A DNA stretch of 64,000 bases from Rhodococcus sp. ARC_M6 (GTDB taxonomy: Bacteria > Actinomycetota > Actinomycetes > Mycobacteriales > Mycobacteriaceae), in NCBI RefSeq assembly GCF_022810305.1, contig NZ_JALGQH010000001.1, positions 186,001 through 250,000 of the forward strand. The letters are read 5' to 3'. A program made the position numbers and the translations under genes. Shown piece by piece: positions 9,327-58,176 of the stretch; within the stretch, counting starts at the first letter, position 1; the number at the start of each line of letters is the position of its first letter. The notes below the pieces were generated by a model. The model did not search any database. It worked only from the letters and a program-made list of their open reading frames with translations, and was not told the DNA's origin.

Positions 9327-9370
9327 CTGTGCGCCTTTATTAACCGCGGGCGGTTAATAAAGGCGCACAG
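9327..9370. repeat. perfect 44-nt palindrome (family B, copy 1)
   Basis: Two 21-bp arms (outer part CTGTGCGCCTTT, inner TTAACCGC) separated by GG form a perfect inverted repeat between the YceI stop and the DUF3054 start. A degenerate relative with the same CCCTGTGCRCCTTT outer arm sits inside aftD at 49681-49728. On the minus strand it forms the immediate 5' leader of the DUF3054 gene and contains its ribosome-binding site. Confidence 0.9.
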
Positions 9371-31594: not shown

Positions 31595-32173
31595 GTGAGT
31601 ATCCTCGGCACCATTCGCGAGGACCTGCAGGCTGCGCGCGGTCAGGATCCTGCCGCGCGCAGCAATGCGGAGAACGCGCTCGTTTACTCAGGGCTGCACG
31701 CCATCTGGTCGCATCGAGTTGCGCACAGGATGTGGGCAGTGCCAGCACTGCGCGGCCCCGCCCGGGTGCTGTCGCAGCTGACACGTTTTGCCACCGGCAT
31801 CGAGATTCATCCCGGCGCCACCATCGGCCGACGGTTCTTCATCGACCACGGCATGGGCGTTGTGATCGGGGAAACTGCTGAGGTCGGCAACGACGTCATG
31901 CTCTATCACGGGGTCACCCTCGGTGGTCGTTCACTCGAGCAGGTCAAGCGTCACCCGACACTCGAAGACCGCGTCACCGTCGGTGCGGGTGCCAAGATCC
32001 TCGGCCCCGTCGTCATCGGCGAAGGCAGTGCTATCGGCGCCAATGCTGTTGTGACACGGGATGTTCCGGCTGATTCCATTGCAACAGGAATTCCCGCAGT
32101 GGCGCGTCCGCGCACCACCACGGAGAAGTTGGTGGATCCGAACAGTTACATCGATCCGGCGATGTATATCTGA
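31595..32173 (+). CDS. cysE: serine O-acetyltransferase
   Basis: A 192-residue acetyltransferase (GTG start) converting serine and acetyl-CoA to O-acetylserine. The N-terminal helical part is short, as in other actinobacterial CysE. The left-handed beta-helix of hexapeptide repeats carries [25 protein letters not shown] with catalytic His/Asp, LYHGVTLGG and KRHPTLED. The C-terminal tail ends in Ile (PAMYI), consistent with the docking tail that inserts into the CysK active site. A strong hairpin follows. Confidence 0.95.
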
Positions 32174-32219: not shown

Positions 32220-32263
32220 TCGGCGTCTGTTCAGACTCGGACAGGTTCGGGACAATTGCTGTG

Positions 32264-32341
32264 AGTGGGCACCCTTTTCATGAAGTGGGCACCCCTTCCG
32301 TCTTGCTGGAAGGGGTGCCCACTGTGCACAAAGGGTGCTCG
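32264..32341. repeat. nested palindromic element, family A copy 1
   Basis: An inner 15-bp stem (GTGGGCACCCCTTCC with its exact complement) is enclosed by an outer CACCCTTT/AAAGGGTG stem. It fills the space between the cysE terminator and the stop of the convergent cation transporter gene. Copies 2 and 3 are at 33338-33415 and 43361-43440. Confidence 0.9.
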
Positions 32342-32342
32342 C

Positions 32343-33296
32343 TCAGGCCGCGATGGACGGTTCTTCCGGCGTCGAAAGCGTCAGGATCGCCCGTACGACG
32401 CGTGGGCTCTGCTCGAGTGTGCGCTCGAGTTCGCGCAAGGTGTGGGCGACTCGTGATTCTGCGTAGTCGCCCACCAGGTCGACACTGGCAACCAGATACA
32501 CCTGCCGCGGACCGAGGTATTCCATGCGCAGGAACGTGATTCGGTTGATGTCGGGAAGCGCGGTGAGTGCTTCAATGCCGGCTGCGCGGAGCGTCGGCGA
32601 TGCTTCTTCGCCGACCAGGAACCGGCGATTGCGATCGATCAGGATCACCGCGATCACGCCCAGCAGGATGCCGACGCAGATGGATCCGAGGGCGTCGGGA
32701 ATCGGTGAGCCAGTGATCTGGTGCAGCAGCACGCCGACAAACGCGATGATCAAACCGATCAGTGCCGCAGCGTCTTCGGCAAACACGGCCCGCGTCGTGG
32801 GGTCGGATGTGTTGAGTGCCTGAGCAAGGACATCGCGGTTGACGGCTGCCGCTTCACCGCGGAGTTGTTTGTACGCCTGACGGAACGAGATGCCCTCGAG
32901 GATGAACGAGACCCCGAGAACTGCGTAGGCAACACCGAAGTCGGTGGCCGGCTCAGAATGGAACAGTTCTTGGATTCCGTGGGTGATCGACACTCCGGCG
33001 CCGAGGGCGAAGAGTCCGAGGGCCGCGAACATCGACCAGATGTAGGCCTCGCGGCCGTATCCGAGTGGATGTTCGCGGTCCGGGACTCGCTTCGATCGCT
33101 TGTTGGCGATGAGGAGCAGCACCTCGTTGCCGGTATCGGCCCACGAGTGGGTGGCTTCGGCGACCATCGACGCCGATCCGGTGATGATCGCGGCAGCTGT
33201 TTTTGCCGCGGCGATCAAAGCGTTTGCGGCAAATGCCAGTACGACGGTGGCGGTGCTTTCGTCTTGTGATGCCTTTGTCTCGGTTTCGGTGCTCAC
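32343..33296 (-). CDS. cation diffusion facilitator family transporter
   Basis: A 317-residue membrane protein (GTG start) of the CDF family, which exports divalent metals such as Zn2+, Mn2+ or Fe2+ in exchange for protons. Six hydrophobic segments are seen. The helix-2 site reads MVAEATHSWADTGNEV, containing the H..xD metal-binding pattern (His and Asp), and the helix-5 site is FAEDAAALIGL with Asp. The C-terminal 90 residues form the cytosolic ferredoxin-like domain. Family A palindromes flank the gene on both sides. Confidence 0.9.
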   Translation of the reverse strand: MSTETETKASQDESTATVVLAFAANALIAAAKTAAAIITGSASMVAEATHSWADTGNEVLLLIANKRSKRVPDREHPLGYGREAYIWSMFAALGLFALGAGVSITHGIQELFHSEPATDFGVAYAVLGVSFILEGISFRQAYKQLRGEAAAVNRDVLAQALNTSDPTTRAVFAEDAAALIGLIIAFVGVLLHQITGSPIPDALGSICVGILLGVIAVILIDRNRRFLVGEEASPTLRAAGIEALTALPDINRITFLRMEYLGPRQVYLVASVDLVGDYAESRVAHTLRELERTLEQSPRVVRAILTLSTPEEPSIAA

Positions 33297-33337
33297 GATT
33301 CTCAGGCTAGGCGGGGGCTGGCGGTTTTGCGCAGGGA

Positions 33338-33415
33338 GTGAGCACCCTTTTCATGAAGTGAGCACCCCTTCCGTAGTGCGGGAAGGGGTGCTCACTGTGC
33401 ACAAAGGGTGCTAGC
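33338..33415. repeat. nested palindromic element, family A copy 2
   Basis: Inner stem GTGAGCACCCCTTCC with its exact 15-bp complement; outer stem AGCACCCTTT/AAAGGGTGCT. Compared with copy 1, the fourth base of the inner arm differs and its partner has changed to keep pairing. It lies between the cation transporter start and the aldehyde dehydrogenase stop. Confidence 0.9.
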
Positions 33416-33426
33416 TCAAGTCAAGA

Positions 33427-34875
<1,449 letters not shown>

Positions 34876-34880
34876 CACAA

Positions 34881-36032
34881 TCATTCCTCGGTGTTGTCGG
34901 TCTGAGGTTCTGGGGCCATATCGGTGAAACTGGTGAAGCCGTAACGCTCGTGGGGTCCGATGGCCGCGACTTCGAAAAGTCCCGTGCCGTCGAAGGTTTG
35001 ACCACCCTCGGTGAGATGGAATTTGCTGAGGTTGTCCACGGGGGAGAACATGCGCTGCATGGGTTCGAATTCGTGGACTTTGTGTCGCAGGCCTTGCACG
35101 ACGAGTTCGCCTTGCCACATTCCGTGACGCCAGTCCTGCTCGAGGCCGTAGCCGGTGCCGATGCCGATGTGGTTGGCCAGCAACAGTTCACAGTCGACGG
35201 TCAGTACCTCACCGTTGGGGCGGTGAAAGGTGAGGGTGGCGCCGGTGACGTCGCGGGTGGCGGGGCAGAAGATCAGGTTGTGCTCGGGTCGGCCGAGCCA
35301 TTCCGTGTCGCGGCCAGGCTCCGGCCACACCCGCATCGCTTCCTCGATGATGCGTCGGCCCTGCGCGTCTTCCTGCATGATGACGGAGATGGTGAAATCG
35401 TCGAATTGCATGACGGAGTAAACCCAGAAGAAGTTCTGGATATCATCGACGGCGCGGCGGCCGGGAGGTTCGGCCTCGCCGACCGGACGCACGCCCCACG
35501 AACGATCACGGTTGCCGCGCCACGTTGTCGGGTCGATCGCGATCTCTTCACCGTCGACGGTGAGATTTCCTGTCCACGTTCCCGTTTGCAAGAAGCGGGA
35601 CGTTTCGAAGGTTACTCGTTCGAGTTGACGACGAAACTGCTTAGGTTCCAAGGCCGCCGGGATGGTGGCGTCGAAGGTGATGTCGAAGGAGAGATCGTAT
35701 TCACTGCTCGGTTCGAGGACAACACGAAGTTTCTGCAGGCCTTCGAGGACCTCGATGCGCAGTGGTCCGACCGTGGTGTCGGTGCGGTCGGCACCGAGAG
35801 CTTTCGACATCCGAGCCACGATGTGATGGTCACCGTGGCGGAGGACCGCAAAACCGTCCATGACACCGAGATTGGGGTACTGGCCCAAGCCGACGATCAG
35901 GAAGGTGTCGTCGCTGTCGGTGGGATAGCAGTTGAAGTAGTAGCGGTCGTAGAAGTTTCGGTCCGAGGTGGCAACGTGGCGGACAGGCTCGGCGATCTGG
36001 TGAATGGGGTAATCGTCCATCGGTGACAACAT
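34881..36032 (-). CDS. conserved protein resembling DUF7064/DUF7065 (lipocalin-like) proteins
   Basis: A 383-residue soluble protein without a signal peptide, starting MLSPMDDYPIHQIAEP. It consists largely of predicted beta strands (LQKLRVVLEPSSEYDLSFDITFDATIP, then GNLTVDGEEIAI and RDRSWGVRPVG), similar to AttH/carotenoid-hydratase-like double-lipocalin proteins. RDRSWGVR is the most family-like motif. The start lies two bases after the phosphotransferase stop and the aldehyde dehydrogenase start is five bases after its stop, so the three genes form a tight operon. The chemical role is not known. Confidence 0.72.
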   Translation of the reverse strand: MLSPMDDYPIHQIAEPVRHVATSDRNFYDRYYFNCYPTDSDDTFLIVGLGQYPNLGVMDGFAVLRHGDHHIVARMSKALGADRTDTTVGPLRIEVLEGLQKLRVVLEPSSEYDLSFDITFDATIPAALEPKQFRRQLERVTFETSRFLQTGTWTGNLTVDGEEIAIDPTTWRGNRDRSWGVRPVGEAEPPGRRAVDDIQNFFWVYSVMQFDDFTISVIMQEDAQGRRIIEEAMRVWPEPGRDTEWLGRPEHNLIFCPATRDVTGATLTFHRPNGEVLTVDCELLLANHIGIGTGYGLEQDWRHGMWQGELVVQGLRHKVHEFEPMQRMFSPVDNLSKFHLTEGGQTFDGTGLFEVAAIGPHERYGFTSFTDMAPEPQTDNTEE

Positions 36033-36034
36033 GC

Positions 36035-37201
36035 TCACTTCACCCCTTCCCAGTAGGTGCCGTCGAGCATCGTGGTGACGGTTGCTCGGTGCATGATCAT
36101 GTCGTCCGGGTCCGCCGGCGTCTCGGCTTGGCCGAACGCTATGGCGCGGGCTTGGACGCGATACATGACCGTGGCGTGCCGGATGGCTGCGTAGGTGGTG
36201 TAGAACTCCAGATCGGTCGGCGTGTATCCGGTGAGATCGGCATAGGTGTCGGCTACGTCCTGGAGCCGAAGGAAATCGGGCAGGCCAGGCAAGTTTGCAA
36301 GGCCGGCAAAGTCTTCGAAGAATCTGTGCTGGAACACCATCCAGCCAAGATCCAGCTCGCGCGGGCCGAGCGTCGCCATTTCCCAGTCGAGCACCGCAGC
36401 GGGTTCGAAGTCCTGGTACATGACGTTCCCGATTCGGGAATCGCCCCAGCTGAGTACTGCGGGGGAGTCGTCGGCGGGGTTGTTGGCTTCGGCCCAATCG
36501 AGGCAACGTTCGATGAGCGGTGACCGTGCTCCGTCCGCGACAGTCCACTCGTAGAATCGACGCTGATCGGCGATGTGAGCGGAGAGTGCTTCTCGGGCAG
36601 TCGAACCCGATCCCGGGAGTTGGAGGAAGTCGAATCGCTCGAGCGGCTTCTCGATGGCGTGCAGGTGGGCGAGAATCTTCACGGAACTGTTCTGAAGTGT
36701 CAGGCGCTGCTCGGGTGTTGCCTCAGTTACCCAGGATCCGAAGGTGTAGGGCATGACGTCTGGCGGAACCTGGCCGGAGATGCGTTCCATCACGAAAAAC
36801 GGTGCGCCGAGAGCGTCGGAACCCGATTCGGACCAGTAGACGGACGGGACCGGAACGTCGGAATGCTCGCGGACCTGCGCCATCGTTCGGAACTGGGCTT
36901 CGAGGTCGTAGGTCGGAAAGATCGGCATGGTGGTCGCCGCCGGTGCAACGCGCGCGACCATCGGGTGGTGTTCGCCGTCCCACGTCGCGTCGAAGAGGAT
37001 GGTTTCGCTGGACATGCCGTTGGCGGCAGGCAAGGTGACGTCGCCGACGGTCACGCTGGATCCGGCCGGTACTTTGGCCGCCATCCACCGCTCGAGGCGC
37101 TCACGCAGGTCTTCGGTGTCACGCTGGGAACTGCTCGGTCGGGCGACCTGAGCGAGATGTTCAGCTTCGTCTGCTGAGACAACGTCGGAACTCATGGTCA
37201 C
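36035..37201 (-). CDS. APH-family phosphotransferase (ACAD10-like)
   Basis: A 388-residue kinase-like protein of the aminoglycoside phosphotransferase/choline kinase superfamily. The Brenner motif reads LSWGDSRIGNVMYQ (Trp in place of the usual His, catalytic Asp and metal Asn kept), followed by the DFG-equivalent VLDWEMATLGPRELDLGW. The N-lobe includes NGMSSETILFDATW and PFFVMERISG. Relatives phosphorylate hydroxyacyl-CoA or similar lipids; drug resistance is unlikely. It is the first gene of the operon, with the KstR-like box 52-65 bases upstream of its ATG. Confidence 0.88.
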   Translation of the reverse strand: MTMSSDVVSADEAEHLAQVARPSSSQRDTEDLRERLERWMAAKVPAGSSVTVGDVTLPAANGMSSETILFDATWDGEHHPMVARVAPAATTMPIFPTYDLEAQFRTMAQVREHSDVPVPSVYWSESGSDALGAPFFVMERISGQVPPDVMPYTFGSWVTEATPEQRLTLQNSSVKILAHLHAIEKPLERFDFLQLPGSGSTAREALSAHIADQRRFYEWTVADGARSPLIERCLDWAEANNPADDSPAVLSWGDSRIGNVMYQDFEPAAVLDWEMATLGPRELDLGWMVFQHRFFEDFAGLANLPGLPDFLRLQDVADTYADLTGYTPTDLEFYTTYAAIRHATVMYRVQARAIAFGQAETPADPDDMIMHRATVTTMLDGTYWEGVK

Positions 37202-37252
37202 CTCCTTCCACTGTTGTCGTGTGCCAAGCCTGCGATGTGTGAGTCAGACCAC

Positions 37253-37266
37253 TAAAACACGTTACA
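37253..37266. promoter_or_regulatory. candidate KstR operator
   Basis: TAAAACACGTTACA fits the 14-bp KstR consensus TNNAACNNGTTNNA at every defined position. It lies in the 131-bp gap upstream of the phosphotransferase-DUF-aldehyde dehydrogenase operon. KstR represses sterol catabolism genes in mycobacteria and rhodococci. No second site was noticed in the window. Confidence 0.65.
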
Positions 37267-37332
37267 GAAATAAGTACCAGATGGCAGCCGTTTACTGGGA
37301 CTTGCGGTGCATGAATTGGGAAAGAACCCGTG

Positions 37333-38238
37333 TCAGATATCGACGTCGAGGGACAGAAGTCCGGCGCCCGTCAAAGTTCCGGCAGTCCCGAGTTGAGCGG
37401 GCAGGATGCTCAGGTCCGAGATGAATGACAATCGGGCATGTCGGGCAGCCGCTTCGAGTAGCGGTTCCCACAGCGGTGGGCCGGCCTGGGAGAATCCGCC
37501 GCCCAAGACGGCGAGGTTCACATCCAGGAGAGCCGCGGCGGACGCGATCGCAATCCCCAAGGCGTGGCCTGCCCGCGCAAGCGCCGCGGTTGCTATGGGA
37601 TCACCACCGCGTGCGGCGTCGGCGAGTTCGAGTCCGGTGCTGCCCGCCCAACCCTGAGTTCTCGCCCATCGGGCCGCCGACGGACCGCTCGCGACGGTCT
37701 CGAGGCAGCCGACGCCACCGCAACTGCAGGGTTCGTCGGCGCCAGGGACAGAGCTGGTGCCGGAGACAGCCATGTGCCCGATGTGGCCGGCGTTGCCGGT
37801 GCGACCGGTAGCAATGCGTCCGCCGAGGACAACGCCGCCGCCGATTCCGGTGGACACGACCAGGCTCAGAAGGTTCGGGATTCCGCGTCCGGCGCCGTGA
37901 TGATGTTCGGCCAGTGCCGCGGCAGCGCCGTCCATCGCAAGCGCTGTTCGGGCACCCGGAAAAAGCGCTTCTATGGCTTCGATCAGCGGGAACCCTCGGG
38001 CCCACTCGCTGATGTTTATGGGTGCTACGACGCCGCCGACGGTATCGACCGGGCCGGCGCAGGCGATCCCGACAGCGTGGATGCTTCTGCCGTCGGCAAC
38101 TCGCCGAAGTAATGCCGCGCAGGTGGCCCAGGTGTCTGCATCAGGGGTTGGCACGGTCTCGACATCGGGGACTCTGCCGTCCTCCCGTACTACGCCGGCA
38201 GCCATCTTGGTGCCACCGATGTCGAGTGCGAGGCGCAC
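37333..38238 (-). CDS. ROK-family sugar kinase or kinase-like protein
   Basis: A 301-residue protein (GTG start) of the ROK family. The phosphate-1 motif is LALDIGGTKMAAGVV, the ROK zinc motif is CSCGGVGCLE, and GHIGHM holds the metal-binding His. The catalytic-Asp region reads AMDGAAAALAEHHHGAG where most glucokinases have NDxNxAALGE, so the sugar specificity may differ. It starts one base after the mtrP stop and is probably co-expressed with it. It may phosphorylate glucose or another hexose. Confidence 0.88.
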   Translation of the reverse strand: MRLALDIGGTKMAAGVVREDGRVPDVETVPTPDADTWATCAALLRRVADGRSIHAVGIACAGPVDTVGGVVAPINISEWARGFPLIEAIEALFPGARTALAMDGAAAALAEHHHGAGRGIPNLLSLVVSTGIGGGVVLGGRIATGRTGNAGHIGHMAVSGTSSVPGADEPCSCGGVGCLETVASGPSAARWARTQGWAGSTGLELADAARGGDPIATAALARAGHALGIAIASAAALLDVNLAVLGGGFSQAGPPLWEPLLEAAARHARLSFISDLSILPAQLGTAGTLTGAGLLSLDVDI

Positions 38239-38239
38239 G

Positions 38240-39010
38240 TTATTTCTTTTCGAGAACCACGACGAGGTTGCTCACCAGAAACTCCCGAAGGCCCGGAACA
38301 CGGACCATCCACCAAGCCCACGATGGGTGATAGCGGGGGATTGCGGCGAGTAGTTCGCCCTGCTGTGTTCCACGGGCCCAGCGTAAGCCGTCGGTGGCGC
38401 CGACTTTGAACAATGACGTGCCGAATTTGTTCTTGGGTTCGCGGCCGGTGGTGCGGAGATAACGCCGGGCCGCGTACTCGCCGCCGAAGGCGTGCCACGG
38501 CCCGGTTTCGTGGCCACCGAACGGCCCCCACCACAGGGTGTACGAGAGGACCATCAGCCCGCCGGGTTTGGTGACGCGCAACATTTCCTCGGCCATCAGC
38601 CACGGTTCGCTCACGTGCTCGGCCACATTCGACGAGAAGCAGATGTCCACGGACGAGTCCCGAAACGGCAAGGCCAGGCCGGATCCGCGTACAGCGCCGC
38701 CGACGGTCAGGCCGGCCGCGTGCATTTCCGACGGATCGGGTTCGACCGGAATGTAGCGGGCGCCGGCGGCTTGGAATACCTCCGCGAAGTAGCCGGGACC
38801 GCCGCCGACGTCGAGGACCGTCAACCCGTCCAAGGATTGACCGGTGTGACCTTCGTGCAGGTCCGAGATCAATTCGACCGAGTCGCGGGCCAGTGCGCCG
38901 TAGAAGATGTCGGGCGCGCTTTGCTCGTGGCGGAAGTCGCTGAGCAACGCGACGGATCGTTTGAGGGTTGCCCGTCGGCCGAAAATGCGGGTCACTGCGG
39001 GCTTGGTCAC
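38240..39010 (-). CDS. mtrP: SAM-dependent methyltransferase, MtrP-like (Rv0224c)
   Basis: A 256-residue class I methyltransferase with motif I LTVLDVGGGPGYFAEVF, acidic VEPDPSEM after strand 2, and CFSSNVAEHVSEPW. It begins with a basic segment (RIFGRRATLKRSVALLSDFRHEQ). By sequence style and position it corresponds to M. tuberculosis Rv0224c; the corynebacterial orthologue MtrP is reported to be needed for efficient trehalose mycolate transport. The start may be GTG 39010 or TTG 39019; neither has a strong ribosome-binding site. The ROK gene follows after one base. Confidence 0.82.
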   Translation of the reverse strand: MTKPAVTRIFGRRATLKRSVALLSDFRHEQSAPDIFYGALARDSVELISDLHEGHTGQSLDGLTVLDVGGGPGYFAEVFQAAGARYIPVEPDPSEMHAAGLTVGGAVRGSGLALPFRDSSVDICFSSNVAEHVSEPWLMAEEMLRVTKPGGLMVLSYTLWWGPFGGHETGPWHAFGGEYAARRYLRTTGREPKNKFGTSLFKVGATDGLRWARGTQQGELLAAIPRYHPSWAWWMVRVPGLREFLVSNLVVVLEKK

Positions 39011-39203
39011 GGAAAGCAACTTTAGCGACTGGTGTGCTCAGTCCACGAATACCGTCGATTCCAGTGTCTGCCGAGTGAGTCAATACGGACGCAGAAGCAG
39101 TTAGGGTGTTCCGCAGGGTTACCGACCGGTCATGGTGGGCATCCCCCGCAAGACCACACGCACCCGCTGCGGTCACAAGGACGAACTCGTAGGAGTAACG
39201 CAC

Positions 39204-40418
39204 GTGCGTGAGGTTCTGTTGCTCTGTTGGCGCGACACCGGGCACCCGCAGGGCGGCGGAAGCGAGCGGTACCTCGAGCAAGTCGGAACCCAGTTGGCCG
39301 CGCGCGGAATCCAGGTGACGTTGCGGACCGCGTCGTATCCCGGTGCTCCAGCGTCCGAGAACCGCGACGGCATCACCATCAGTCGCTCCGGTGGACGCTT
39401 CAGCGTGTACCCGCGGGCACTGGCTGCGATTGCCGCCGGCCGACTCGGATTCGGTTCGCTCAAGGGTATTCGTCCCGACGCCGTCATCGACACGCAGAAC
39501 GGGATCCCATTTTTCTCGAAGATGGTGACCGGTGCACCGGTCACTCTGCTGGTTCATCACTGCCATCGCGAACAGTGGCCGGTTGCGGGCAAGCTCGTCG
39601 GCCGGATCGGTTGGTGGGTGGAATCCCGGTTGTCCCCGCGGACGCATCGGAGCAGTCAGTATCTGACCGTGTCACTGCCTTCGGCCGAAGAGTTGGCGGA
39701 TCTGGGAGTGGATCGCAACCGAATTGCCGTGGTGCGCAACGGGGCTGATCGACTTCCGGTCGGCGTCGACGCGGGTGGTTCGATCACCCGGGCCACCCGC
39801 CCTACCATGTCGGTGCTCTCGCGTCTGGTGCCGCACAAGCAGATTGAGGATGCTCTCGAAGCTGTTGCGGTACTTCGACCTTCGGTTCCGGATGTCCATC
39901 TGGACGTCATCGGTGGCGGCTGGTGGGAGCAGAACCTGCGTGATCGTGCTGCCGAGTTGGGTATCGACGACGCGGTGACGTTCTACGGGCATGTCGACGA
40001 GGCGCGCAAGCATGAACTGTTGGCGCAGTCGTGGATCCACCTCATGCCTTCGCGCAAAGAAGGATGGGGGTTGGCTGTCATCGAAGCCGCGCAGCACGGT
40101 GTGCCGACCATCGGATACCGCAGCTCCAAAGGTTTGACGGATTCGATCGTCGACGGTGTGACCGGCCTTCTGGTGGGCGGCGAAAGCGTCGGTGACGCCG
40201 ACGTGGCAGAACTGACCGAGGCAGCCGGAATTCTGTTGCGCGATCACGAACTTCGAACGGTTCTCGGTGAGAAGGCGCGGGTATGGTCCGGCGAATTCTC
40301 TTGGGAGCAAACCGGAACCGGGGTGTTCGAAGTATTGACCGCCACGGCGGACGGGCGAAGGGTTTCAGGTTTGGTTGCGCCGCGCGAGTCGAACTCTGTT
40401 CTTGTGCAATCCGACTGA
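39204..40418 (+). CDS. GT4-type glycosyltransferase (Rv0225-like)
   Basis: A 404-residue GT-B fold enzyme. The acceptor-domain loop is HPQGGGSERYLEQVG and the donor side has VLSRLVPHKQIEDALEA and the EX7E motif region PSRKEGWGLAVIEAAQHGVP. It probably transfers a sugar from a nucleotide or polyprenyl donor to an envelope lipid or glycan on the cytosolic face. GTG 39204 is chosen because AGGAG lies nine bases upstream. Its end overlaps the convergent membrane-protein gene by 54 bp. Acceptor and donor unknown. Confidence 0.88.
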   Translation: MREVLLLCWRDTGHPQGGGSERYLEQVGTQLAARGIQVTLRTASYPGAPASENRDGITISRSGGRFSVYPRALAAIAAGRLGFGSLKGIRPDAVIDTQNGIPFFSKMVTGAPVTLLVHHCHREQWPVAGKLVGRIGWWVESRLSPRTHRSSQYLTVSLPSAEELADLGVDRNRIAVVRNGADRLPVGVDAGGSITRATRPTMSVLSRLVPHKQIEDALEAVAVLRPSVPDVHLDVIGGGWWEQNLRDRAAELGIDDAVTFYGHVDEARKHELLAQSWIHLMPSRKEGWGLAVIEAAQHGVPTIGYRSSKGLTDSIVDGVTGLLVGGESVGDADVAELTEAAGILLRDHELRTVLGEKARVWSGEFSWEQTGTGVFEVLTATADGRRVSGLVAPRESNSVLVQSD

Positions 40419-42098
40419 CAGCAGCGCAACTGTCCCCATCAGAACCCAGGCCAGGTGCGCAATGATGACGGAGGCGCGCGCGATGCTCGAAGCTTGGTGC
40501 ACGGCAGGTTTTCCGGGGACTCGATAGAGTTCGAGATAGTTGTCGGCGAATACCTTCTCCAGATCGCGGAGTGAAGACTCGTCGAATTGGCCTGGCGTAT
40601 CCCGTTCCACCAATACCCATCCGACGCCGAGTGCGGCCAATTCGGCGTTTCCGCCGCCGGAAAGCAAGAGATCCTCGACCTGGCCGGCGCGAGTTCCTTC
40701 TCCACCGACGGCTCCACCGGCGACTATCAGTTGCCCTGTTTGCAGGACGTCGAGGGGGAGGAAACGCGGCGCCGGATCGAGAACCGGGGCGTCTCCGCTG
40801 TACGTGAAAGCGCGGAACATTCCGGCGGGAAGTATTGCCACATCACCGGATTCGCCTCTCAGCTGCTCGGATACTGTGGTCCAGGCCTGCGGGTAGGTTA
40901 CAGGTTTCAGGGCCCCGCCGACGCCCCAGACCAGATCGGGCAGTGCCAGGATCGTGACGACCACGGCAGCGATCGACCACGTCGGTCTGGGCAGGGGAAA
41001 GCGCTGTTGCGCCCACATCACGGCGGCAGCTGCGGACAATGCGTAGAAGGGCGCCGCCAGAGCCACCCACTTCTGTGAGTCGCGGAGCAGTCCTGCGCCC
41101 GAAAAGGATTCGACGGACCAGCGGCCCACGTCGAGGCCCCACGGCGTCGCACCCAAAGCCGGAGCGAGCACGGCGGCGAGGGCCAGGATTCCCAGAGCGG
41201 CAATAACCGGATTACGACGCCGCCGCCACAGCGCCGGGATGCCGCTGAGAACCAGGATGAGGAGCAGAACCGTCCCGACTACGGCGAAGAGCGTTGCGCG
41301 CGTGGCCGGAACGGCGGCTGAATTCCAGACGCCACCCAAACCAGCGAGGCTGCCCAGAGTTCCGAGCCCGGGTTCCGCGCGGGCGGCAAACGCTGCCACC
41401 CCGGCAGGGTCGGAGCCGTCGCCGACGCCGTCGGCGAGGAGCGTTGCAGTCAGCCACGGCGACGCCGCGATCAGGAAGAGTGCGCCCACACCGCTCAGGC
41501 GTCGCAGCACCGGCGATTGCCCGCCGGGTGACCCAACCACCACCAATGCCGTCGTCAATCCCAGGAGTGCGCCGGTAGGCGTCAGACCCGCAAATGCCAA
41601 AGCTGCTGCCAGGCCCCACCAGGAACCGGGAATCCGGCGTCGTACCCCGATACCGGCGCACACAATCCACGGCAACGCGCCGTAACCCGCCAGCAGGCTC
41701 CAATGTCCTTGCAGCAGACGCTCGGCGACGTACGGGTTCCACAACATGACCGTCGACGCCACCAATTGTGGTCCCAGTCCGGCGCTCGGCAGGAGTACCG
41801 CGACCAGGCGTGCCGCGCCCCAGCCGGCCAGCCAGAGTGCGGCGAGCAACAGGCCTTTCACTACCAGTCCGCCGTCGACGACTGTGCTCAGTGCTGCAAT
41901 GAGAGCGTCCTGAGGAACAGCACGTGCGGCTGCGTCGGTGAGTCCGAGAGCGGAGTCCGTGAGGTATGACCGGGGGGTGCTGACGGCGTCGCGCAGCAAA
42001 AGGTAGCCGGAGCCGAACAGTGGACCGAGGATCAAGGCCGACAGTGCCAGGCTGTACACCGCCGCTACGAAGCTGTCGCGTTTCGGCTGCACTGTCAT
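40365..42098 (-). CDS. polytopic membrane protein, GT-C-like (Rv0226c-like)
   Basis: A 577-residue protein with about 12 hydrophobic helices, a large extracytoplasmic segment near the end (GALKPVTYPQAWTTVSEQLRG, GVGWVLVERDTPG) and a final helix (VIIAHLAWVLMGTVALLSVGLH). The first loop (RDAVSTPRSYLTDSALG) resembles the region of arabinofuranosyltransferases such as AftD, so it may be a polyprenyl-sugar-dependent glycosyltransferase. ATG 42098 is chosen; the frame is open to 42179, overlapping the divergent flippase start. It sits between a glycosyltransferase and a flippase. Confidence 0.75.
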   Translation of the reverse strand: MTVQPKRDSFVAAVYSLALSALILGPLFGSGYLLLRDAVSTPRSYLTDSALGLTDAAARAVPQDALIAALSTVVDGGLVVKGLLLAALWLAGWGAARLVAVLLPSAGLGPQLVASTVMLWNPYVAERLLQGHWSLLAGYGALPWIVCAGIGVRRRIPGSWWGLAAALAFAGLTPTGALLGLTTALVVVGSPGGQSPVLRRLSGVGALFLIAASPWLTATLLADGVGDGSDPAGVAAFAARAEPGLGTLGSLAGLGGVWNSAAVPATRATLFAVVGTVLLLILVLSGIPALWRRRRNPVIAALGILALAAVLAPALGATPWGLDVGRWSVESFSGAGLLRDSQKWVALAAPFYALSAAAAVMWAQQRFPLPRPTWSIAAVVVTILALPDLVWGVGGALKPVTYPQAWTTVSEQLRGESGDVAILPAGMFRAFTYSGDAPVLDPAPRFLPLDVLQTGQLIVAGGAVGGEGTRAGQVEDLLLSGGGNAELAALGVGWVLVERDTPGQFDESSLRDLEKVFADNYLELYRVPGKPAVHQASSIARASVIIAHLAWVLMGTVALLSVGLHKNRVRLARRNQT

Positions 42099-42131
42099 GA
42101 CGCGCACGATACGTGGTGCATCATTGGTCGC

Positions 42132-43364
42132 ATGGCGCGCCAACCCCTCGACCGTTCTGCTGGCACCGAGGACACGCACTACGCCGCGACTGCCGCCGGG
42201 GTCAGCATGGTGATGGCCGGTTCCATGACTGCGAATGTGGCTGCGTACCTGCTTGCGTGGTTGGCGAGTCGATGGTTGGGCCCTGCCGGGTACGGCGAAT
42301 TCGCGAGTCTGCTGGCCGCACAGTTGGTGCTGGCAGTCCCGGCCCTGGCGTTGCAGACAGTGGTCGCCCGTGAGGCCGTACGAGGCAAGAGCACAGAAGC
42401 CTTGCGGTCGTTGGGTTATCGATGCGCGGCGATCGTTGCCGTTCTCGCCGTGGTGCTCACTCCCGCGATGGCCTGGCTTCTCGATACCGGAATCGTGGCA
42501 GCGTTTTCTGCTTTGGTGACAGCTCCGATGCTGGTTTTGCTGGCCACGGAACAGGGATTGTTGCAGGGGCGTGGCCGGTTCGGTGCACTCAGTGCCGTGC
42601 TTGCGGGCGCGGGAGTAATGAAAGTTGTTCCGGCAGTGTTAGTTCTGGCTTTCGGCGGCGCAGCCTCCGGGGCGCTGGTCGCGGGTGCGGCCGGAACGGC
42701 GTTGTTGGTGGCGGCAGTTCGGATTCTCGACCGAACCGCAGTGCCGAGTGCGCATCAGCCCGTCCGTATCGGTGTTGCATCCGTGCTCGCGGCCTCGCAG
42801 GTTCAACTTGCACTGATCGCCTTGTCGTCGCTGGACCTGCTGATCGTCCGCGTGGTGCTGAGCGAATACGACGCCGGTATCTACGCACTGGGCGCGGTGG
42901 CAACCAAAGCGGCGTTCTGGCTGCCCCAAGCGGTCGGGGTCGTCCTGTATCCGAAGATGGCGAATCCTGCGCAGTCGGCTCGCGCTGTGCGGACTGCGTT
43001 GGCTGTGCTCGTCGGGATCGGCGCAACTTTGGTGCTGGGCGCGGCAATTGCGGGTCCGTTGGTGCCGGTGCTGGTGGGCGACGATTACGCCCCCGTGGCG
43101 TCGATGCTGTGGGCTTTTGCTCTGCACGGTGCGGTGCTGGCGGTGTTGCAGTGCGCTCTGCTCGCGGCAATCGCGTCGGAACGCACGAGGGTCGCTGTAC
43201 TCGCGTGGATCGGGCTTCTCGTCGAAGGCACAGTGATGCTGGTGTGGGCCGAGACGCCCGGGGAGTTGATCGGGACTGCGGTGGTAATCGCGTCGGTGAC
43301 GGCGGTTGCCGTGGCGACTGCTGCAGTACGGAGTGCGGACCGTGCGAGTGTCAGCGCGAGCTAG
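42132..43364 (+). CDS. MOP-superfamily oligosaccharide/lipid flippase
   Basis: A 410-residue membrane protein with about 12 hydrophobic helices in the Wzx/MurJ-like polysaccharide-biosynthesis pattern. It includes AAYLLAWLASRWLGPAGYGEFASL near the start, a motif typical of this family, and SSLDLLIVRVVLSEYDAGIYALG at the middle helix pair. It should move a polyprenyl- or lipid-linked glycan to the outer face. It starts 33 bp from the divergent Rv0226c-like gene. I do not recall a counterpart at this point in M. tuberculosis, so it may be a rhodococcal addition to the cluster. Confidence 0.83.
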   Translation: MARQPLDRSAGTEDTHYAATAAGVSMVMAGSMTANVAAYLLAWLASRWLGPAGYGEFASLLAAQLVLAVPALALQTVVAREAVRGKSTEALRSLGYRCAAIVAVLAVVLTPAMAWLLDTGIVAAFSALVTAPMLVLLATEQGLLQGRGRFGALSAVLAGAGVMKVVPAVLVLAFGGAASGALVAGAAGTALLVAAVRILDRTAVPSAHQPVRIGVASVLAASQVQLALIALSSLDLLIVRVVLSEYDAGIYALGAVATKAAFWLPQAVGVVLYPKMANPAQSARAVRTALAVLVGIGATLVLGAAIAGPLVPVLVGDDYAPVASMLWAFALHGAVLAVLQCALLAAIASERTRVAVLAWIGLLVEGTVMLVWAETPGELIGTAVVIASVTAVAVATAAVRSADRASVSAS

Positions 43365-43440
43365 CACCTTCTCAATGAAGTAGGCACCCCTTCCGACGTG
43401 CGGGAAGGGGTGCCTACTTCATACAACGGGTGCCAGCTTC
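43361..43440. repeat. nested palindromic element, family A copy 3
   Basis: Inner stem GTAGGCACCCCTTCC with its exact 15-bp complement; the outer stem (GGGTGCC side) is more diverged. It overlaps the flippase stop codon and ends 14 bases before the stop of the convergent DUF3068 gene. Both differing arm positions are compensated relative to copies 1 and 2. Confidence 0.88.
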
Positions 43441-43454
43441 ACTGGCGAAACTCA

Positions 43455-44585
43455 TCAGTCCTTGCGAAGATCCGGACGCGGGATCACCTGAGTGTCGTCG
43501 GAGGTCCAGTCGTGCTCGCCGGGAGCGGGGCTGGCGGGACGCTGTCCGCTCGGAGCCTGGCCTCCGCCGGCGTGTGCTGCCGCCGGGGTTCCACCCTTGC
43601 CGCCGCGCACACCGAGGAAGATACCGGCGGCCAGTGCGATCAGGCCGAGGATGCCGGCGATGATCGGAACGGTACGACCGACGAGGTTGAGCAGATCCAT
43701 GCCGTCCTTGGCCTGCCCGATCTGGTACTCGATGGTTGCTTCGTCGAAGGGAAGCGTGACGTTCAGGACGTCGACGTCGACCGAGTTCTTGTTGCGGCCG
43801 TAGTACTGATGCAGCTGCTCCTGGCCCTTGACGATGACACCGGTCTTGGGCTCGACCCACAGGTCACGAACGTTGGTGTACCAACGCGTCATCGTGATGG
43901 GGGTTTCGCCACCCGGTACGCCCCAGGTGTCGGCAGGCAGCGTCAGCTTGTTCGTGGGGGAGTTGACGACCTTCGACAGATCGACAGGTTCGACCGTCTG
44001 TGTGAAGTGGTAGACCTTCATGCCGTTGATCTCGGTCTCTTCGACGAAGTCGATGTCCTGAGTCGCGCGAGCATTGAGATCGAAGTACGGGTAGGTCTTC
44101 TTCTCCGTGTTGAACGGGAACTTGTACTGCAATCCGTCGCGGGAGAGTTCCTGTGCAGGCTGACCGGGGTCGGTCTGAATGGTTCCGACCGGGTCGTTGG
44201 TCGGCATGGAGCTGACGCGATCGAGCGTGACGGTGTCGACGGATGCAGTCAAGAGTCCGCTGTCGCCCTGCTTGTCGGTGCGGATGACGGTCTGGCCGGC
44301 TTGGACCGTGATGTCGTCGGCGTTGGAAGGATCCTGCGTCGTGACGTAGCGCTGAGCGACGATCGGTACGTTCTTGTCGACCTGTGCCTTACCGGCGAGC
44401 AGTGCCGCGGAGTTGAGGACACTGCCGTTGCCCGTCGCGATGGTGGTCACCTCGAGGTCGAGCGGCGTCTTCTCCAACTTTCCCACCATGTAGGTAGGAA
44501 TGAGGACGGCGATGGCCAAGAGGAAGGCTCCAAGGCCCACCAGAATGCAAGGAAGTATCCGGCTCGGCCCTGAGCGTTCCGCCAT
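43455..44585 (-). CDS. DUF3068/PorA-family membrane-anchored protein (Rv0227c-like)
   Basis: A 376-residue protein with an N-terminal helix (ILPCILVGLGAFLLAIAVLIPTYM), an extracytoplasmic beta-rich domain of about 270 residues, a C-terminal helix (TVPIIAGILGLIALAAGIFLGV) and a short cytosolic Pro/Gly tail. This is the DUF3068 plan. The database label porin PorA should not be taken as evidence for pore formation. ATG 44585 has AGGAG upstream; the longer frame to 44906 runs into the divergent acyltransferase and is rejected. It is convergent with the flippase. Confidence 0.83.
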   Translation of the reverse strand: MAERSGPSRILPCILVGLGAFLLAIAVLIPTYMVGKLEKTPLDLEVTTIATGNGSVLNSAALLAGKAQVDKNVPIVAQRYVTTQDPSNADDITVQAGQTVIRTDKQGDSGLLTASVDTVTLDRVSSMPTNDPVGTIQTDPGQPAQELSRDGLQYKFPFNTEKKTYPYFDLNARATQDIDFVEETEINGMKVYHFTQTVEPVDLSKVVNSPTNKLTLPADTWGVPGGETPITMTRWYTNVRDLWVEPKTGVIVKGQEQLHQYYGRNKNSVDVDVLNVTLPFDEATIEYQIGQAKDGMDLLNLVGRTVPIIAGILGLIALAAGIFLGVRGGKGGTPAAAHAGGGQAPSGQRPASPAPGEHDWTSDDTQVIPRPDLRKD

Positions 44586-54116: not shown

Positions 54117-54163
54117 GTGAACGTATCGCTCCCCTTGTTGGATAGGGGGAGCGATACGTTCAC
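54117..54163. terminator. long palindrome between convergent tetR and htdX
   Basis: GTGAACGTATCGCTCCCC pairs perfectly with GGGGAGCGATACGTTCAC (18 bp) around an 11-nt loop. A smaller CACCCC/GGGGTG hairpin overlaps its left edge and excludes it. It probably acts as a two-way terminator. Confidence 0.75.
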
Positions 54164-58020: not shown

Positions 58021-58100
58021 TAACGCTGACGGATAGCTACCGATAATCAAGACAGCCCCGTGCTGCTGCCTGACCCCCGACCTGGCAGCAACGCGGGGCT
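58021..58100 (+). promoter_or_regulatory. promoter-like box and C-rich-loop hairpin upstream of the VanW gene
   Basis: A GATAAT -10-like box (about 58042-58047) is followed at once by a hairpin at 58054-58100. AGCCCCG pairs with CGGGGCT and, inside it, TGCTGCC with GGCAGCA, nearly one continuous 17-bp stem, closed by a loop containing CCCCC. It could be the 5' leader structure of the VanW mRNA or a short RNA ending in its own terminator. Confidence 0.45.
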
Positions 58101-58176
58101 CTCGTATGTCCAGATAGTCTGTAAGGCAGTTGTCGGTATGCGCCGCAGCCCGGTCGATGCAGCGAGGAGTCAACGA

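Follow-up and report, generated by a model that had tools for sequence, protein, structure and literature searches.

The 64,000-nt window analysed here, positions 186001-250000 of contig C14 of Rhodococcus sp. ARC_M6 (6.34 Mb, 134 contigs; labelled G000 below), carries three copies of a dispersed palindromic family built on four half-sites. A gene recurring beside such palindromes in several genera encodes a protein of about 315-350 residues, with an AbiEi-antitoxin-like region and a nuclease domain like those of I-Bth0305I and Vsr, here called AbiEi-nuclease. We consider it probable, at roughly 70%, that the palindromes in cis and this protein in trans make up the two parts of one system, selfish or domesticated. 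This reading builds on the copy family and its geometry, the linkage of gene and palindrome, the co-variation of half-sites with protein lineage, the different placement of the gene in related species, and a predicted fold with active-site-like residues. The three window elements, with extents given by a covariance model, are:

Element 1: 32261-32346, both strands (symmetric); half-sites GCACC 32269-32273, GCACC 32289-32293, GGTGC 32314-32318 and GGTGC 32334-32338; spacers 15/20/15.
Element 2: 33334-33419, both strands (symmetric); half-sites GCACC 33342-33346 and 33362-33366, GGTGC 33387-33391 and 33407-33411; spacers 15/20/15.
Element 3: 43356-43441, both strands (symmetric); half-sites GCACC 43364-43368 and 43384-43388, GGTGC 43409-43413 and 43429-43433; spacers 15/20/15.

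All three lie where the initial annotation had placed them. Each forms a single continuous symmetric palindrome, inner plus outer stem, with an identical column sum for all pairs. The perfect inner stem described earlier as 15 bp is real and actually longer (16, 16 and 20 bp of unbroken pairing in elements 1, 2 and 3). Only elements 1 and 2 match ACCCTTT/AAAGGGT exactly in the outer arm; element 3 reads ACCTTCT/AACGGGT. The four-half-site architecture was absent from that annotation. No gathering-level Rfam match was obtained at the three elements.

The exact core pattern matched three places in the genome, the window copies, and its reversed control matched none, which excludes chance. A DNA query and the covariance model found more copies. 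The model matched 15 places in the genome, each scored on both strands because the palindrome is symmetric, and some of these form close pairs; the elements thus do belong to a dispersed family, as had been proposed. Among the own genome and 60 relatives, 18 of 61 genomes were matched, all of the same genus, and within the genus the model matched 21 of 28 genomes. From 80 retrieved loci, 91 Rhodococcus copies were read, falling into 40 orthologous groups; as the copies are thus partly orthologous, p-values computed over them exaggerate their independence. Exactly 86 nt was the length of 77 copies, the remainder being mostly 84 or 82 nt. The consensus of the aligned copies, GCACC-15-GCACC-20-GGTGC-15-GGTGC, describes a symmetric palindrome of about 84 bp, and the spacing is much more constant than the sequence.

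We ran a pattern consisting of the four half-sites only (spacers 13-15/20/13-15) on 401 genomes of the family. It matched 32 genomes in 7 of 31 genera, and the reversed control matched none. Two Nocardia genomes contained 35 and 38 exact matches. The matches listed include N. brasiliensis, N. wallacei, N. mexicana, N. transvalensis, R. rhodnii, R. erythropolis, R. jostii, Antrihabitans and Enemella evansiae, together with likely chance matches inside genes. Among 176 quadruplets, left and right spacers were mostly equal (14/20/14 in 113, 15/20/15 in 33); the search that gave the named loci had spacers of 13-15 and a centre of 20 pre-set. With the centre freed to 6-35, a listing that excludes the matches of G014 (17) and G288 (36), the centre was 20 among the matches listed, apart from cases in G065 (10, in 9 of the 29 copies listed) and G196 (17, once among 34 listed of 36 matches). 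An extra outward half-site at 19 bp was present in 14 cases among 116 copies. At one Nocardia tenerifensis locus (L187, 2331-3014), three successive palindromes carry additional GGTGC half-sites at 19-bp steps, and here the half-site ladder seems able to lengthen. The nine G065 forms with a 10-bp centre are near-perfect palindromes of 58 bp, in a genome that also has twenty 68-bp forms.

Spacing near whole helical turns points to a protein on duplex DNA, since a hairpin by itself needs no such spacing. This phasing, with a centre of 20 or 10, and the number of about 15 sites per genome would also suit an architectural role, in which a nucleoid or segregation protein binds the sites and the nuclease gene is a hitch-hiker. 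We regard that explanation as very improbable, given the patchy distribution (the GCACC form in 32/401 genomes), the small number of sites, their bias to gene ends and the gene-site linkage in several genera.

To describe this linkage, 858 proteins encoded near palindromes were clustered. Several families were always adjacent to a palindrome, mostly as orthologous neighbours (for example aldehyde dehydrogenase, 12/12). One family, AbiEi-nuclease, occurred at unrelated places in several genera and was adjacent to a palindrome at 7 of 7 loci. The palindrome-adjacent gene was found in Rhodococcus, Nocardia, further genera of the family and Enemella. In tblastn searches of the loci retrieved up to that point, five family members matched 12 (10 distinct sites) in Rhodococcus, Nocardia and Enemella; all had a palindrome at the gene, and 7 of the 10 sites had palindromes at both gene ends. 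In ARC_M6 the gene lies between palindromes at C14:534760-535710, about 285 kb past the end of the window, and is the single match at E 1e-25.

Homologues were scored in 305 of the 401 genomes. Protein scoring retained at most five candidates per genome, and 30 loci were taken. A strong palindrome within 300 bp of the gene was present at one end in 21/30 loci and at both ends in 9/30, versus 26/235 and 0/235 control genes and 1/23 and 0/23 window genes under the same criterion. Because some of the 30 loci had themselves given rise to the query, a recount was made with palindromes of at least 60 bp and with seven known or near-query sites removed. It gave one end in 12/23 and both ends in 3/23, with controls at 8/235 and 0/235. 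With no half-site assumed, 79 of 94 arms of gene-side palindromes have an internal repeat of 19 or 20 bp, but control palindromes also peak at 19 (16.5 of 34 arms), which makes the period test weak as a contrast; the control peak perhaps reflects family members unrecognised among the controls. The erythropolis clade has kept the gene next to the peptidase gene (that of locus B below), but with no palindrome close by. In one genome of this clade (G017, locus L404), a stop codon interrupts the aligned stretch of the nuclease gene at residue 36, so that the gene is possibly truncated or has a later start.

The half-site sequence differs with protein lineage while the spacing is constant. In genera g10 and g43, CACAC replaces GCACC in many gene-side palindromes. 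When the 401 genomes were searched for CACAC-14/15-CACAC-20-GTGTG-14/15-GTGTG, 11 matched, all of them g10 or g43 and none with the GCACC pattern; the reversed control matched one genome. Among the CACAC matches listed, those in G107, G195, G089 and G174 flank the gene on both sides, those in G036, G123 and G231 lie on one side, and those in G113, G129, G138 and G222 lie away from it. In R. rhodnii (G014), TTCTGCACC is common to gene-linked and dispersed palindromes. All 43 genomes with either pattern had a protein match at E 1e-25, versus 262 of the 358 genomes with neither.

Related species also differ in which palindromic site holds the gene, the site without it having a lone palindrome. 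Two loci were compared:

Locus A: between DUF2804 and amidohydrolase genes; palindrome(s)-gene-palindrome in G000, G003 and G004.
Locus B: S9 peptidase and iron-sulphur reductase genes; the gene in G008, G011 and KRD197, a lone palindrome in G000, G003 and G004.

In G011, a single palindrome joins the flanks of locus A; it can be aligned with both the first and the last palindrome of G000. The nine Rhodococcus genes form one clade of the protein tree (100/100), and those of G000, G003 and G004 are nested among the locus-B genes (inner fork 93/85). The simplest history suggested by these sequences would be a move of the gene from B to A that left a lone palindrome at B; an old duplication with differential loss may be the alternative. 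Clean empty sites and target-site duplications were not found, and related sites hold another hairpin or an open reading frame (ORF).

The predicted fold of the catalytic domain agrees with EDxHD/Vsr-like nucleases (PDB 3r3p, 1cw0), and the DNA-binding region is AbiEi-like (PDB 6y8q, 1zel). Residues D217, E228, D230 and E256 are invariant and K234 is present in 40/45, an active-site-like set. Pfam gave sub-cut-off matches only (AbiEi_4, AbiEi_1, DUF559 and others), NCBIfam nothing meaningful, and a sequence search of the PDB no match. Phages yielded no match to the protein, and plasmids four weak ones. Actinobacteria commonly encode proteins that begin AbiEi-like and end DUF559-like, often labelled as antitoxins and not known to have a function; one such label was seen here.

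The AbiEi-like region raises the possibility that the palindromes are operators of an AbiEi-type autoregulator, the dispersed copies being the regulon sites of this repressor. Several genomes do have palindromes upstream of the gene. In PMC7319586, the M. tuberculosis homologue Rv2827c is described as binding its own promoter at four inverted repeats of 23 bp, which fits such a regulator. Copies are, however, scarce in divergent regions (7/91 and 7/107) and lie at gene 3' ends, including that of the nuclease gene. The AbiEii toxin family was absent among 10 neighbour genes tested at six loci (one neighbour is cytidylyltransferase-like, PF01467), and the conserved nuclease residues would be unneeded by a pure repressor. 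We therefore judge the autoregulator to be quite unlikely. AbiEi-nuclease differs from AbiEi antitoxins including Rv2827c (PDB 6y8q, 1zel; PMC7319586) in its added nuclease domain, in having no adjacent AbiEii toxin at the loci tested, and in sites that lie genome-wide at gene 3' ends and not in one promoter. Compared with EDxHD/I-Bth0305I and Vsr enzymes (PDB 3r3p, 1cw0; PMC3943268), the DNA-binding part is AbiEi-like, the motif is EFDGxxKYGR where the family is named for EDxHD, and the protein apparently targets dispersed palindromes of its own element instead of a conserved gene of the host. The different placement of the gene at palindromic sites would be compatible with self-copying cleavage of the kind known from EDxHD homing endonucleases.

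The position of the copies was established with a custom codon-usage gene caller. The 91 Rhodococcus copies comprise 51 between convergent genes, 32 tandem, 7 divergent and one inside a gene call, often with a stop codon within 10 bp, in agreement with the gene 3'-end position proposed in the initial annotation. Of the 130 named copies, 46 lie between convergent genes, 54 between tandem and 7 between divergent ones; a further 14 fall inside genes (probably chance pattern matches), and 9 are unplaced. The baseline for both sets, taken from 764 neighbouring gene pairs in named, mostly Nocardia loci, is 143 convergent, 488 tandem and 133 divergent. Convergent copies place a strong hairpin directly 3' of the stop codons on both strands. 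At two sites where other clades have no element, an unrelated strong hairpin occupies the same gene end, which fits use as a bidirectional terminator. Judging from these positions, the palindromes at gene 3' ends probably act as bidirectional terminators or 3' mRNA stabilisers, a role that had been suggested before and that we find plausible.

The copies could then be ordinary bidirectional terminators and nothing else, alike through occasional gene conversion, with the nuclease gene carrying two as its own terminators. Their location at stops and between convergent genes (51/91; 46/107 placed named copies versus 143/764 in the baseline) agrees with this, as do the unrelated hairpins in the same slots of sister clades at two sites. 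Terminators, however, need no fixed GCACC ladder, no symmetric 14/14 or 15/15 spacers, no quantised centre and no half-site varying with nuclease lineage. Strong palindromes are about as frequent 5' of the nuclease gene as 3' (16 and 14 of 30), and the nuclease gene of the erythropolis clade is without palindromes. On these grounds we hold the purely terminator explanation to be unlikely.

Pairing within the arms was also considered. The earlier description of the inner-arm differences GTGG/GTGA/GTAG as compensated holds in the three copies, which mirror them with CCAC/TCAC/CTAC, and compensation recurs in the family, where the case for exact compensation is weaker. Across 14 copies of the genome, covariation is at the level of column shuffles (79.5% paired in both), but pairing is far above that of slid structures (38-46%). 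In 85 orthologous comparisons of the inner stem, 33 double changes kept and 14 broke a pair, while 67 single changes were breaking and 33 gave a wobble. Covariation was rejected as proof of RNA pairing because it has no excess over column shuffles. Arm compensation is likewise no proof of selection on RNA pairing, as template switching could also yield it.

The genes around the window elements are:

31595-32173, + strand: hexapeptide acetyltransferase gene, cysE-like; it and the efflux gene converge on element 1.
32343-33296, - strand: cation-efflux family transporter gene (PF01545), between elements 1 and 2.
33427-34884, - strand: aldehyde dehydrogenase gene, ending at element 2.
42132-43364, + strand: gene ending inside element 3, no Pfam match.
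43455-44540, - strand: PorA-like gene (PF11271), convergent with the preceding gene across element 3.

Elements 1 and 2 thus flank one transporter gene, as first reported. The outer arm of element 1 covers the stop codon of the cation-efflux gene (TCA on the + strand, 32343), and element 2 lies 38 bp off the start of this gene and 8 bp off the stop of the aldehyde dehydrogenase gene, where the erythropolis clade also has an element. The TAG stop of gene 42132-43364 falls inside the outer arm of element 3, and the flanking genes are convergent. At loci L306, L308, L310, L311 and L312 of other Rhodococcus genomes, a small apparent ORF (about 100 codons) separates the efflux gene from cysE; beside element 1, G000 has apparently its last bases only.

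Other hairpins and RNAs were observed as well. A perfect 44-bp hairpin with 20-bp arms (CTGTGCGCCTTTATTAACCG...) at window 9327-9370 is 44/44 identical in G011 (L359:1450-1493), with no further similarity over the 2.1 kb of window compared. A relative lies at the aldehyde dehydrogenase 3' end in G005, G020 and G023, where the own genome has element 2; the two perhaps represent a second dispersed hairpin family. A strong hairpin with 18-bp arms (GTGAACGTATCGCTCCCC...) is found at window 54117-54163, and an Rfam F6 sRNA (RF01791; 69 bits versus a gathering score of 46) at 58049-58105 on the + strand. At L343 (G000 C40, about 67520-67700), a short tandem array of a GTGCAGTGACATTGAA-like unit lies beside a hairpin and is absent or shorter in G003 and G004.

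The initial annotation had looked to a REP-associated tyrosine transposase as a possible mobiliser. A candidate trans-acting enzyme gene does recur beside the palindromes, but PF01797, the Y1 HUH tyrosine transposase family, had no match in the genome, although it was found in 5 of 14 control genomes, E. coli included. RAYT was accordingly rejected as mobiliser in this genome. That the elements are REP/REPIN sequences mobilised by a RAYT encoded elsewhere is extremely improbable: they are palindromic, dispersed and intergenic, with some close pairs, but a different gene family is linked to them and no GTAG or CGTC tag was seen by eye at the ends of 14 aligned copies. In REP elements, such a tag stands at one end of a 20-40 bp palindrome (PMC3733652). 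RAYT-REPIN systems are described as having a single-copy, vertically kept enzyme and hairpin repeats (PMC8049555, PMC3116915, PMC8266576). The present system resembles a REPtron in its dispersed intergenic hairpins, some flanking one dedicated gene (another gene here), in the mostly single-copy vertical gene, in repeat-enzyme co-evolution and in possible side roles in termination. It differs in its enzyme (AbiEi-like plus Vsr/homing-type nuclease, not a HUH Y1 transposase), in its untagged repeats (about 84 bp long, with a fixed centre and four half-sites spaced by 19-20 bp), and in having few copies (15 here; 35 and 38 exact matches in two Nocardia genomes).

Other mobile systems offer partial parallels. 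As with MITEs, short non-coding copies share ends with a putative autonomous gene-bearing unit (palindrome-gene-palindrome, in several genera); here, the entire element is a palindrome, and no target-site duplication was seen at the related sites. We know of no dedicated dispersed palindrome for the Rpn nucleases, a family separate from AbiEi-nuclease. Like it, the Rpn (YhgA-like) recombination-promoting nucleases are a non-classical enzyme family tied to DNA mobility (PMC5350276).

The system is best read, from sequence comparison, as REPtron-like, a convergent analogue of RAYT-REPIN with a hydrolytic homing-type nuclease. Its trans part would be one gene per genome here, joining AbiEi-antitoxin-like DNA binding to a Vsr/I-Bth0305I-like PD-(D/E)XK nuclease. 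Its cis part would be the palindromes, with two half-sites per arm 19-20 bp apart and a centre of 20 bp (rarely 10). AbiEi-type domains would bind the four half-sites, and the nuclease domain would nick or cut at the palindrome, lone palindromes being the homing target. Because a hydrolytic cut would leave the copying of the element to host repair, we propose a homing model: repair primed by palindrome homology may copy the palindrome, or the palindrome-gene-palindrome unit, into the break. Recombination between flanking palindromes could restore a lone palindrome. Copies would persist at gene 3' ends, mainly in convergent gaps; there the strong symmetric hairpin probably serves as a bidirectional terminator or 3' mRNA stabiliser.

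We see an even chance that this represents a new class of mobile element, a palindrome-homing unit, in which a lone AbiEi-Vsr/EDxHD protein cuts its own palindromes and spreads palindromes and gene by host repair, with no DDE, HUH, serine or tyrosine transposase. It would extend from the Rhodococcus/Nocardia family to Propionibacteriaceae, with a half-site varying by lineage on a fixed geometry. Searches of an open-access library listed no evident report of the AbiEi-nuclease/palindrome pair, subscription papers being outside the search.

The findings suggest that at least some AbiEi-like/DUF559-like proteins are mobility enzymes with a cognate palindrome. If this is true, RAYT-REPIN has a convergent counterpart that uses a homing-type hydrolytic nuclease and whose protein-site pairs can be read in several lineages; it would also supply convergent gene pairs with strong hairpins. 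Half-sites that change by lineage on an unchanged geometry are material for learning a recognition code, and the spread and persistence of hairpin repeats without a classical transposase become testable.

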